From Pseudomonadota bacterium (GTDB lineage: Bacteria > Pseudomonadota > Gammaproteobacteria > Acidiferrobacterales > UBA6901): a stretch of 54,232 bases of DNA. The notes under the pieces are model-generated. The model was not told the origin of the DNA. It was given only the letters and a program-made list of their open reading frames with translations, and searched no databases. Positions 27,313-32,211 of this stretch are shown one piece after another. The translations under genes and the position numbers were made by a program. The first letter of the stretch is position 1, and every line of letters starts with the position of its first letter. The DNA lies in assembly GCA_021790335.1 (NCBI GenBank), contig JAJYEE010000019.1, positions 1 through 54,232 of the forward strand, read 5' to 3'.

Positions 27313-28149
27313 ATGACACCAGGGCACCGCCATCGCAAACGCTTCGGACAGCACTTTCTGCGTGACAGCAGCATAATCGCGCGCATTGTCGACGAGTTTG
27401 ATCCGGGACCGGATGACCAGATCGTTGAAATCGGACCGGGGAAAGGAGCGCTCACACACGCATTGCTAACGCGCGTCGAAGTCCTGCATGCCGTCGAGCT
27501 TGATCGCGACCTGGTGTCGTACCTGCGGGGAATGTTCCAACAACGCCTGGACGTCCACCAGGCTGACGCGCTGAAGTTTGATTTCTGTCGCCTGGCTCCG
27601 TCTGCAGAGCGGCTGCGACTCATCGGCAATCTTCCGTATAACATCTCTACACCCCTGCTGTTTCACCTGCTCGATGCCTGCCCATGCATACAGGACATGC
27701 TGTTCATGCTGCAAAAGGAGGTCGTGGATCGTCTGGCTGCGGCACCGGGTGGCGGAGACTATGGACGTTTGAGCGTGATGGTCCAGTGGCGCTGCCATGT
27801 CGAGCGGCTGTTCAGCGTACCGGCCAGCGCCTTCTCTCCCCCCCCGCAGGTCGAGTCGGCAGTAGTTCGCCTGACACCGTACCGGCAGGCTCCGGTAGTC
27901 GTAGACGATCCAAAGCGCTTTCAGCAAATCGTGCTCGCGGCATTCACCCAGCGACGCAAGGTTCTACGCAACAGCGTCGGCGGCCTGGTGCGTCCGGAAC
28001 TGTTCGAGCGGGCGGGAATCGACCCCGCCCGGCGCGCAGAAACGCTGAGTCTGGCGGAATTTGCAGCACTGGCGAATCTGGCGGCCAGCCCGGAGCATTC
28101 CGGGGACACGGACGGAGAATTCCGGGACATAAACCAGCACCGAGACTAG
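27313..28149 (+). CDS. rsmA: 16S rRNA dimethyladenosine transferase
   Basis: RsmA (KsgA), 278 residues, dimethylates the two adjacent adenines in helix 45 of 16S rRNA with S-adenosylmethionine. RKRFGQHFL opens the protein, IGPGKGALT is the SAM-binding motif I, and NLPYNIS is the catalytic motif IV. The start at 27313 fits these; the longer frame to 27220 overlaps pdxA. It is the last gene of the lptD operon and converges with plsC. The two stop codons share the bases CTAG at 28146-28149, so each gene ends inside the other's stop. Confidence 0.93.
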   Translation: MTPGHRHRKRFGQHFLRDSSIIARIVDEFDPGPDDQIVEIGPGKGALTHALLTRVEVLHAVELDRDLVSYLRGMFQQRLDVHQADALKFDFCRLAPSAERLRLIGNLPYNISTPLLFHLLDACPCIQDMLFMLQKEVVDRLAAAPGGGDYGRLSVMVQWRCHVERLFSVPASAFSPPPQVESAVVRLTPYRQAPVVVDDPKRFQQIVLAAFTQRRKVLRNSVGGLVRPELFERAGIDPARRAETLSLAEFAALANLAASPEHSGDTDGEFRDINQHRD

Positions 28150-28898
28150 GCGACTTCCTTCGGCCGAGACGGTTGTCGGCCGTGCCCAGAGTGGTTTTCC
28201 AGGCTGGTCATGGTTTGGCGCATCCATTGTTCCGCGGTGTCCCGTATCTGCTGGGCTGACCGGCCATGACTGTCGATCACCGGCCCGATGACGACTCGGA
28301 TCGTACCGGGTCGCTTGATGAACCCCCGCCGTGGCCAGAATGAACCTGCATTGTGCGCCACGGGCACAACCGGATAGCCGGTCTCGGCGGCAAGCACCGA
28401 GCCCCCGATCCCATGCCGCTTGTTTTGCCCTGGACCGACCCGCGTGCCCTCCGGGAATACCACAACCCAGCGACCGCGATCCAGACGTTCGCGGCCTTGC
28501 GTGACGATCTGCTCGAGTGCGCGCGAGCCGCCGCCGCGGTTGATGGCGATCGGCTGCGTCAGGGCGAGTCCCCAGCCGAAAAACGGGATCAGAAGTAACT
28601 CGCGTTTGAGCACCCAGACCTGGGGCGGAAAAATGACCTGGAAGGCCAGCGTTTCCCACGAAGACTGGTGTTTTGCCAGGATTATCGCCGGACCGCTCGG
28701 CAGGTTCTCTTCCCCTTCAACCCGATAGGTCAGATTGCAGACCACCTTTAACAGCCAGACTTGCAGCCGTGCCCAGAGGCTTATGAACCGGTACCGTGTC
28801 AGCGGTGGAAAAGGCGCCGTGAACAGGCTGAGGATGGCGTAGACAACGACGGTGGAGAACATGAGGATATTGAACAGTAACGAGCGCAGCGCAAGCAT
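28146..28898 (-). CDS. plsC: 1-acyl-sn-glycerol-3-phosphate acyltransferase family
   Basis: Membrane acyltransferase of 250 residues that acylates lysophosphatidic acid to phosphatidic acid. An N-terminal hydrophobic segment (LLFNILMFSTVVVYAILSLF) anchors it. The catalytic motif reads KHQSSWE, with Glu in place of Asp in HX4D, a variant common in the proteobacterial members, and FPEGTR is the glycerol-phosphate-binding motif. It starts 1 bp after the GmhB-like stop codon, the usual gmhB-plsC order downstream of glyQS. The open frame runs on to 29405, but only the part from 28898 is coding. Confidence 0.9.
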   Translation of the reverse strand: MLALRSLLFNILMFSTVVVYAILSLFTAPFPPLTRYRFISLWARLQVWLLKVVCNLTYRVEGEENLPSGPAIILAKHQSSWETLAFQVIFPPQVWVLKRELLLIPFFGWGLALTQPIAINRGGGSRALEQIVTQGRERLDRGRWVVVFPEGTRVGPGQNKRHGIGGSVLAAETGYPVVPVAHNAGSFWPRRGFIKRPGTIRVVIGPVIDSHGRSAQQIRDTAEQWMRQTMTSLENHSGHGRQPSRPKEVA

Positions 28899-28899
28899 A

Positions 28900-29427
28900 T
28901 CAATCCGCACCCCGTCCGGCGATAAGAGAGTCGATGAAGGCTCCGAGAGTGTCGAAATCCTCTGCCGGGCTGGTCTGCCTCCTGCCGGCACCACCCAGCA
29001 GCACCGGCTGCGCTCCAGCTGCTTTTGCCGCATTCGCTTCATCCCCCGTTGCGCACACGGCAGGAACCGACGACAGATTGATCTTGAATCGCTCGGCAAT
29101 CTCCTGATACAAACCGGGCAAAGGCGGCCGGCAGCGACAGCCCGCATCAGCGGAATGGGGGCACACAAAAACCGCATCGACCTGCCCGCCCTTGTTCCGG
29201 ACCGACTCAAGCATACGCACGTGAATGCGGTTGAGCATCTCCATCTGCGGCACCCCGCCCGCGACACCTGGCTGAGCGGTTGCAACCACCACCCGGTAGC
29301 CTTCCCGCTGCAGACGCGCCAGTGCCTCCAGGCTGCCCGGTAGCGGCGCCCAGTCATCGGGCTGCTGGACGCCGCCGGCGAGGGTCCTGTTGATAACACC
29401 ATCACGGCTTAGAATGACGAGTTTCAT
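28900..29427 (-). CDS. GmhB-like HAD protein with lost catalytic residues
   Basis: Protein of 175 residues in the position of gmhB (D-glycero-D-manno-heptose 1,7-bisphosphate phosphatase) between glyS and plsC. The fold and zinc site are preserved: C89, H91, C97 and C99 match the CxH...CxC loop. The catalytic centre is not. The motif that should read LDRDG reads LSRDG, so the nucleophilic Asp is S7; D9 remains. The motif II segment TNQSG reads TAQPG, and the Lys of CRKP is P101. GD at 128-129 is kept. It should be inactive as a phosphatase unless rebuilt, yet the frame is intact over its full length. MKLVILS at 29427 is the natural start. Confidence 0.8.
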   Translation of the reverse strand: MKLVILSRDGVINRTLAGGVQQPDDWAPLPGSLEALARLQREGYRVVVATAQPGVAGGVPQMEMLNRIHVRMLESVRNKGGQVDAVFVCPHSADAGCRCRPPLPGLYQEIAERFKINLSSVPAVCATGDEANAAKAAGAQPVLLGGAGRRQTSPAEDFDTLGAFIDSLIAGRGAD

Positions 29428-29624
29428 TCGGTCGCGCCCGGGGCGGCCTCCGCACCGAGACCGGCCGGTGAAATCACCGCCGGCAACGCGCAAACACAGT
29501 CACCGGCGGCAGCCACAACACCCAACGGGCGAGAATTCGGTCCGACACAGTCATTCGCGCCTGCCGGACGAGCGTCGCACATCCGTATCATCGGTTTTAT
29601 CCTGGTGGGAAGCCGATCCGCAGC
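29428..29624. other. spacer between GmhB-like and MazG-like genes
   Basis: About 200 bp with no gene. It contains the near-palindrome CCGGCcGGTGAAATCACCgCCGG around 29460-29485, which could form a hairpin or bind a dimeric protein. No promoter consensus was convincing. Confidence 0.35.
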
Positions 29625-29954
29625 CTAGTCACGGAATTCTGAAACACGTATACGTCCGTTGATCATGCGGCTTTGGCGCGACTCAAGTTTACCCATCTTG
29701 TCCCAGAATGCCTGGCGCAGGTCGAATCCGGCACTGATCGCGGTCCCCAGCACCAAAATGAACAGGTCCGCCACCTCTTCCGCGAGCGCCTCGGTGCTCT
29801 TGCCCTTGGTGACGCAGGCGGAAACTTCGCCAAGCTCTTCCGCCATGAGCGCCACGCGGTAGACAAGGTCCTCCCCGCCGCTCTCGCGGAACCGGTGTTT
29901 GTCGTGAAAAGTCTGGACTGCCGCAAGCATGTCCTGGTAAGAATCCGGATTCAT
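29625..29954 (-). CDS. MazG-like nucleotide pyrophosphohydrolase
   Basis: Small all-helical NTP pyrophosphohydrolase of 109 residues. The metal-binding pattern is visible as EELGE followed about 15 residues later by EEVADLF (E..E and E..D), the hallmark of MazG/dUTPase-like folds. Such proteins cleave (d)NTPs to the monophosphate and pyrophosphate, often as house-cleaning enzymes. The natural start is MNPDSYQ at 29954, 28 bp after glyS on the same strand. Its place between glyS and the gmhB-like gene differs from the usual glyS-gmhB-plsC order, so it may be an inserted gene. Confidence 0.8.
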   Translation of the reverse strand: MNPDSYQDMLAAVQTFHDKHRFRESGGEDLVYRVALMAEELGEVSACVTKGKSTEALAEEVADLFILVLGTAISAGFDLRQAFWDKMGKLESRQSRMINGRIRVSEFRD

Positions 29955-29982: not shown

Positions 29983-32211
29983 TCATCCCTGTTGCCGGGC
30001 CTGCAGCTTCGAAATATCCGCAGCACCGAGAAACAGGCTGCTGAGTTCGTTCAGCAGTGCAAGGCGATTGTCGCGTACGCGGACATCCTCGGCCATAACC
30101 ATTACCTGATCGAAGAACTCGTCGACCACGGTACGCAACCCCGCCAGCCGTTTGAGCGCTTCGGTGAAAGCACCGTGCCCGATCAGATCCTCAACCTCCA
30201 GGCGCAGCGAGCCCATCTGCTGCGCCAGTCTCTGCTCCGCGCTTTCGGTCAGCAGCCCCGCTTCGACACGGCCAGCCGGCCCGCCACCGGCCTGCCGAAG
30301 GATGTTGCGGATGCGCTTGTTTGCGCTTGCAAGCGCCTCTGCCTCGGGCAGGCACCGAAAAGCCTGGAGGGCCTCAAGGCGCGGCATTACCTGATCGAGA
30401 TGCGTCAAACCGAGACTCAGGACGGCGTCGATCTCGTCCGGCAGAAACCCCTTGTCGCGCAGATAGGGTTTGAGCCGCTCCAGCAGAAACCCATGAAGAT
30501 CCTGCACCACACCTTCGGAAATGACATTCGGGTCGAAGTAGCCGCGCGCCAGCGTGAGCAACTCCCCCAGGTCGAGCGCTAGCGAGCGTTCCACCAGAAT
30601 GCGCACGATGCCCAGCGCCTGCCGCCGCAAGCCGAACGGGTCCTTGTCGCCGGTAGGGACAAGCCCCACACCGTAGATACCGACCAGGGTAGCGAGCTTG
30701 TCCGCCAGCGCCAGACACACGCCGGCCGCCGTGGACGGTAATCGGTCTCCCGAGAAGCGCGGCGCATAGTGCCCCCGGATCGCCTGTTCGGTGCCGGTCG
30801 ATTCGCCGTCATGCCGGGCGTAGTCAGCGCCCATATAGCCCTGCAACTCCGGAAACTCTCCGACCATTTCGGTCAACAGGTCGGCTTTGCAAAGATGCGC
30901 CGCACGTTCTACATCGCATCTATCCGAATCCGGCATTCCTAGGCGTCCAGCAATCTCGCCCGCTAGCTTTTCCAGACGATGTACGCGCTCGAGCTGACTG
31001 CCCAGCTTGTTTTGATAAACCACGCTGGCAAGCTTCGGAACTCGGTCTTCGAGCCTGATCTTCCTGTCCTGCTCATAGAAGAATCTGGCGTCACTCAGCC
31101 GCGCCCGCAGCACGCGTTCGTTACCGTGGATGATGTGCCGGGGTGTACGGGTCTCCATGTTGCTAACCACCAGGAACCGCGGCAACATCCCTCCAGCCGC
31201 CTGTTTATGGACCAACGGAAAATATCTCTGGTGGTGTTGCATGCTCAATGCAAGGCAGGGGATGGGAACGCTCAGGAAATCCGGATCAAACTGACCCGCA
31301 TAGACGGCGGGCCATTCCACCAGGGCTGCAACCTCATTCAGCAGCTCAGCGTTATTGCGGATGACCTCCTCTGCCGCAAATCCCCATTCATGGCCAGGGA
31401 ACTGGATCATCGTTCCACCAGCACCCAGAACCAGCGCCCCTTTCCTGACTTTTCCGGCCGCCGCGCGCAGCTTGTGTTCGATCTCGCTGCGGCGTTCGGC
31501 GAAGCTGGCGATAACATGACCCCTGCGACGCAGCGTATCAGCATAGCGTCCGGCATGAGGAATGGTCAGCTCGCCGCGACTGAGAAAACGATGTCCTGCA
31601 GTCACGTTGCCACTTCGCAGCCCGAAAACCCGGCCGGCAACGACGCGCGCGCCGTGCATCATCACAAGACCGTGTACCGGCCGCACAAACTCAACTTCGC
31701 CGCTACCCCAGCGCATGAGCTTGGCGACCGGCAATTTTTTAAGGCTCATCTCGACGATTGCCGCCAGGTGCCGCGCCAGCGGTTCACCCTTCTGTTTCGA
31801 GCGATACACGAAGTATTCACCCTTCTCACCACTGCGGCGCTCGAGGCTGCCCGGGTCAACGCCGCATGACTTGGCAAATCCGCTCAATGCGGCTGTGGGC
31901 TTGCCTGATGGATCGTAGCCAGCACTGACCGAGGGGCCGCGGCGCTCGACAATGCGATCTGGCTGTCTCCCGAGCACGCCGGTAGCGAGCACGGCCAGTC
32001 GCCGCGGCGTCGCAAACACCTGCTGCGTGCTGTCGGCACGCAGCAGGGCATTCCGGCCCAGGCCTTCCACCACCCCAGCTGCGAACGCCTCGGCGAGTCG
32101 CTGGAGCGACTTAGGTGGAAGTTCCTCGGTGAGCACTTCGACAAGCAGGATATCGCCGGTCTGGCGCGGAGGAACGCGATTCCGCTCCGCTTTCGCAGAT
32201 CTTGCGCTCAT
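29983..32211 (-). CDS. glyS: glycyl-tRNA synthetase beta subunit
   Basis: Beta subunit of the tetrameric bacterial glycyl-tRNA synthetase, 742 residues, a little longer than usual. It begins with a basic N-terminal extension, then [16 protein letters not shown], the conserved family start. The body contains the HD-like region, and the C-terminal anticodon-binding-like domain ends near [11 protein letters not shown]. The start overlaps the glyQ stop by 4 bp. With GlyQ it charges tRNA-Gly. Confidence 0.93.

Follow-up and report, generated by a model that had tools for sequence, protein, structure and literature searches.

A putative HAD pseudophosphatase in the glyS-linked gmhB slot of Gammaproteobacteria

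PcrP of Pseudomonas aeruginosa (PA2803 subfamily) is a HAD protein that lacks the nucleophile and the residues of motifs 2-4, is inactive and binds partner proteins (PMC12632274). The protein described here resembles PcrP in its HAD fold, in the classes of residue lost and in its retention as a protein. PcrP, however, belongs to a phosphonatase-derived C1-cap family found in pseudomonads only, does not recur in a fixed operon slot, and is not described with a zinc site like the one considered below in the available part of its report (PMC12632274). The C1-cap phosphonatase kinship of PcrP is not shared by our protein, whose nearest relatives are GmhB/HisB-N proteins. Descriptions of GmhB pseudoenzymes were not found in the literature searched.

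The glyS-linked GmhBs, represented by Bordetella bronchiseptica 3l8h and Burkholderia thailandensis 4pnh and presumably including P. aeruginosa PA0006, are like our protein in fold, zinc ligands and position after glyS. They differ in possessing the nucleophile, the motif II Asn, the motif III Lys and both motif IV Asp residues, all of which it has lost. The zinc has a structural role in structures of GmhB. YaeD-type GmhB (TIGR00213; Escherichia coli 2gmw) belongs to the same superfamily subgroup, and the second GmhB of the genome is of this type, whereas the protein studied here falls in another clade and reaches only 58.6 bits against the TIGR00213 cut-off of 149.6 in a profile search. In E. 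coli an unidentified enzyme partly covers for GmhB (PMC9302095), so that even a bacterium with a heptose pathway may do without GmhB catalysis for some time.

Residues, fold and setting of the slot protein

The window is the whole stretch of 54,232 nucleotides that was analyzed, from a bacterium of the order Acidiferrobacterales (contig JAJYEE010000019.1). The gene in its gmhB slot (28900..29427, minus strand), called pseudo-gmhB below, is a single open frame of 175 amino acids plus stop; the other window features given here lie on the same strand. Losses were called from the translation by alignment with intact orthologues from sister families. Relative to these, Ser replaces the nucleophile Asp of motif I at codon 7 (29407..29409; LSRDG), Ala the motif II Asn at codon 51 (29275..29277; VATAQPG), Gly the loop Arg after motif II at codon 57 (29257..29259; QSGVARG in intact proteins) and Pro the motif III Lys at codon 101 (29125..29127; CRCRPP), while at codons 126-130 (29038..29052) the GDxxxD of motif IV has become Cys-Ala...Glu (Ala126, Glu130). 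All four HAD motifs are therefore broken, by Ser7, Ala51, Pro101 and Ala126/Glu130. Among 94 intact relatives, D7, D9, N51 and D126 are each present in all 94 and K101 in 93. Asp9, the second Asp of the DxD (29401..29403), is kept, and the zinc-site region (29131..29163) retains C89, H91, C97 and C99. The earlier note had read Ser7, the motif II Ala, Pro101, the four zinc ligands and the complete frame, each of them exactly as translation gives it; the two motif IV losses and Gly57 are additional to what it listed. A clear Shine-Dalgarno sequence was not seen ahead of the ATG, at 29428-29445.

The GmhB family profile NF006506 recognizes the protein with E=3.7e-45 and 153.7 bits, below its 178-bit cut-off. 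Of the features that mark a GmhB, the structural zinc site CxH...CxC is present, and so is the fold, as judged from an AlphaFold2 model (pLDDT 91) that aligns with 3l8h, the B. bronchiseptica GmhB, at TM 0.93 and with 42% identity over the structural alignment. The DxD with a nucleophile Asp is absent, its place being taken by Ser7-Arg8-Asp9, as are the motif II Asn, the motif III Lys and the motif IV DxxxD. The protein thus combines lost catalytic residues with an intact predicted fold and, as described below, purifying selection (dN/dS about 0.1), as a HAD pseudophosphatase would. Judging from its residues, it is likely to be catalytically dead and to have no phosphatase activity.

Upstream lie a gene that we take, from sequence features, to encode a MazG-like pyrophosphohydrolase-type protein (29625..29954) and glyS, encoding the beta subunit of glycyl-tRNA synthetase (29983..32211). 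Many relatives share this placement of the MazG-like gene between glyS and gmhB, others lack the gene, and it appears as an accessory member of the conserved cluster. The constant partner is glyS, located upstream of the slot gmhB in nearly all lineages examined; this adjacency is weak evidence on a partner for the slot protein, because glyS adjoins intact GmhBs as well. Downstream, a plsC-like acyltransferase gene (28146..28898), identified by motifs and by tblastn to relatives, starts 1 base past the pseudo-gmhB stop, and the two genes are probably co-translated. A tie of the slot gene to plsC was weakened by the near-constancy of upstream glyS and by several gene-keeping lineages, for example Hydromonas and Microbulbifer, in which a downstream plsC match was not found. 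The plsC frame is also open upstream across nearly the whole of pseudo-gmhB (28146-29405; a 419-amino-acid open reading frame), probably as a GC-rich artefact.

Age of the losses, selection and heptose genes

The same set of losses occurs in four congeners and in one genome of a second genus (G005), and since it is common to six separately assembled genomes it reflects neither chance nor sequencing error. Among the six slot proteins of the family, the nucleophile position holds Ser or Gly and the motif II position Ala, Val or His, motif III has Pro in 6/6 and motif IV is lost in 6/6, while the zinc ligands are invariant. Conservation of Ser7 and Pro101 in close relatives, which the earlier note had proposed to examine, thus holds in full for the Pro and in part for the Ser, which alternates with Gly. 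In the order's other families, each of the 24 slot proteins that were read has an intact DRDG. In a GmhB tree the six family proteins form one clade within the slot proteins of the order, on a long stem (0.66), indicating that the losses of this family are a single conversion passed on by vertical descent, and they are older than the split of the two genera.

Pseudo-gmhB is under purifying selection equal to that on its neighbors. Between the window and the nearest species, dN/dS (Nei-Gojobori) is 0.10 for pseudo-gmhB, compared with 0.11 (glyS) and 0.09 (plsC). When more distant species are used, pseudo-gmhB gives 0.04-0.20, values that glyS and plsC also span, and the canonical gmhB copy 0.09-0.14, although dS is near saturation for these pairs and weight is placed on the nearest pair and on pN/pS intervals. 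These values, together with losses that predate two genera, support the non-catalytic role that the earlier note had raised. That note had named two signs which together would count against its reading, namely relatives with an intact motif and relaxed selection on this gene; such relatives do exist, as sister families, and the relaxation is absent.

As the earlier note had anticipated, a second GmhB is encoded elsewhere, at G000:C99:8334-8783 beside gmhA, hldD and hldE. It scores 164 bits, above the TIGR00213 cut-off, and has all catalytic residues. TIGR00213 replaced PF13242 as the probe for this second copy because PF13242 also matches other HAD proteins. The gene sits in a compact heptose operon of order hldE-hldD-gmhA-gmhB, with hldE fused (G000:C99:8241-11942), and in the GmhB tree the canonical second GmhB and the slot proteins fall in separate clades (100/100). 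The hldE open frame is 478-594 amino acids long in the window's genus, and the best full-length hldE match is 318-361 amino acids for most of the order's other families. The hldE length and the separate GmhB clade suggest that the genus acquired the whole heptose cassette, and heptose would be made in this genus via the canonical GmhB of this operon.

In G005 (UBA6908; 97% complete), a gmhA-type SIS protein, an hldE above the cut-off, GT9 heptosyltransferases and a second GmhB were all not found, and its LPS is apparently heptose-free. This genome nonetheless retains pseudo-gmhB. Since the gene is kept there without a detectable heptose pathway, heptose alone cannot explain its retention.

Recurrence behind glyS

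When 84,980 species genomes (GTDB) were scanned with the family alignment, under a pattern that demanded [SG]RDG, 30 further loci were obtained at which a GmhB has Gly or Ser at the nucleophile position, among them those of Caldimonas tepidiphila, Hydromonas duriensis, Formosimonas limnophila, Microbulbifer variabilis and a Sedimenticola MAG. At 29 of the 30 the gene lies behind glyS on the same strand, and at the remaining locus glyS was not found. An hldE (TIGR02198, E <= 1e-40) was not found in 27 of the 30 genomes. Most of the genomes in this analysis are MAGs, so that some hldE absences could be gaps. Each of the three hldE-bearing genomes has another GmhB with an intact DxD. Three Microbulbifer genomes with a dead slot GmhB were searched for a GT9 enzyme and none was found. 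The conversion is recurrent across Gammaproteobacteria, Burkholderiales included. In C. tepidiphila (L053:6001-7200), two GmhBs stand in tandem behind glyS, the first with a Gly nucleophile position and the second with an intact DRDG, and both are kept. With about 30 genomes found to have a GmhB match and no hldE, a gmhB annotation cannot be equated with heptose synthesis.

Conservation within the dead set (n=37) was weighted for sequence similarity. The zinc ligands are kept at 94-100%, His69 at 100%, Gln52 at 97% and Asn13 at 95%, compared with 82% for Asn51, 72% for Lys101, 59% for Asp126 and 27% for Arg57. Asp9 is present at 100%. For 30 of the 37 proteins this follows from the construction of the search pattern, and the other seven, which come from two lineages and are free of the filter, also keep it.

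As an unbiased control, 60 families of the class were represented by one genome apiece, chosen by whole-protein match and not by motif. The nucleophile Asp is present in 59 of the 60 families; the exception has Ala (G099), and neither hldE nor GT9 was found in its complete genome. Among the 59 intact control genomes, 52 have hldE. We scored a slot GmhB as dispensable when hldE is absent or another GmhB match is present in the genome, and 12 of the 59 intact genomes are dispensable on this rule (7 without hldE, 5 with another GmhB match), so dispensability does not force loss. Among rows of the glyS tree, 36 are lost and dispensable, 0 lost and needed, 10 intact and dispensable and 40 intact and needed. 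On this tree (FastTree, 93 rows) at least 10 switches between intact and lost are required, 7 of them forced by well-supported branches, a count that is a lower bound because the tree is quick, the intact and lost rows were gathered by different routes and the further losses were motif-filtered. In independent pairs, loss went with dispensability in 7/7 in most random pairings (mean 6.7 for, 0 opposite; median p 0.016, range 0.016-0.063).

Retention of the slot gmhB after heptose loss is common and not universal. Of the genomes without hldE at the class level, a convincing slot gmhB is missing from 13, whereas 8 retain a GmhB match; in 7 of these 8 the nucleophile Asp is intact, and one (G060) has no glyS nearby.

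Possible roles of the slot protein

Annotation treats gmhB simply as an LPS-core gene. Repeated loss of its catalytic residue, in a gene retained under strong selection by bacteria that have no detectable heptose pathway, implies another role for this conserved neighbor of glyS. In our judgment the slot protein is probably a HAD pseudophosphatase that has arisen recurrently and is retained for a role that is non-catalytic and does not depend on heptose, with the canonical second GmhB making heptose. By analogy with PcrP, binding would be the most likely such role: the protein would be kept folded and stabilized by zinc, and would act by binding a protein or ligand partner. Conversion would then recur wherever the slot GmhB becomes dispensable for heptose, and intact slot GmhBs may already possess the second role. 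We hold it an even question whether the glyS-linked GmhB of Gammaproteobacteria, again with Burkholderiales, has an unrecognized second, non-catalytic function that becomes its sole one once heptose is lost or outsourced, hence the many independent pseudo-GmhBs.

Ordinary decay, in which a copy made redundant by the second GmhB persists as a pseudogene with its frame still unbroken, could draw on the presence of the canonical copy in the genus and on the long stem branch of the family. We rejected it on dN/dS, which for the nearest and other pairs alike stays within the glyS and plsC range; the same losses in two genera with no frame damage and the invariant zinc ligands also leave it scarcely any probability, and the earlier suggestion of a decay that has not yet had time to damage the frame falls with it. 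The slot protein could instead be a different active enzyme in which Asp9 or the zinc site serves another hydrolysis or transfer. Such an enzyme would fit the persistence of Asp9, Gln52, His69 and the zinc ligands, and in several pseudo-GmhBs of other lineages Asn51, Lys101 and the two Asp residues of motif IV are still present. However, the window's family is also without the metal-binding motif IV and the Lys, the zinc is structural in GmhB structures, and replacing the nucleophile normally abolishes phosphoryl transfer in the HAD superfamily, so we regard another activity as unlikely.

A slimmer chance attaches to a regulator of heptose synthesis that pairs with the canonical GmhB or sequesters heptose bisphosphate. 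Pseudo and canonical GmhB do coexist in the window's genus and in the C. tepidiphila tandem, but such a heptose-tied role was set back by the genomes without hldE (27 of the 30 other dead-slot genomes, and G005), and G005 and the three Microbulbifer genomes also lack a detected GT9. It is very unlikely that only the frame matters, the gene coupling translation from glyS to plsC or carrying an overlapping element. The one-base junction with plsC would suit such coupling, whereas selection acts at the amino-acid level, about 200 bases separate pseudo-gmhB from the next upstream gene in the window, and a downstream plsC match is not always found, as in Hydromonas and Microbulbifer.

If the slot protein is indeed kept for a non-catalytic role, the pseudo-GmhBs offer a natural separation-of-function series for finding it. 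The most degenerate case seen is a GmhB relative from an uncultured member of the Salinisphaerales (L092:6001-6528), in which zinc ligands are missing along with the nucleophile.
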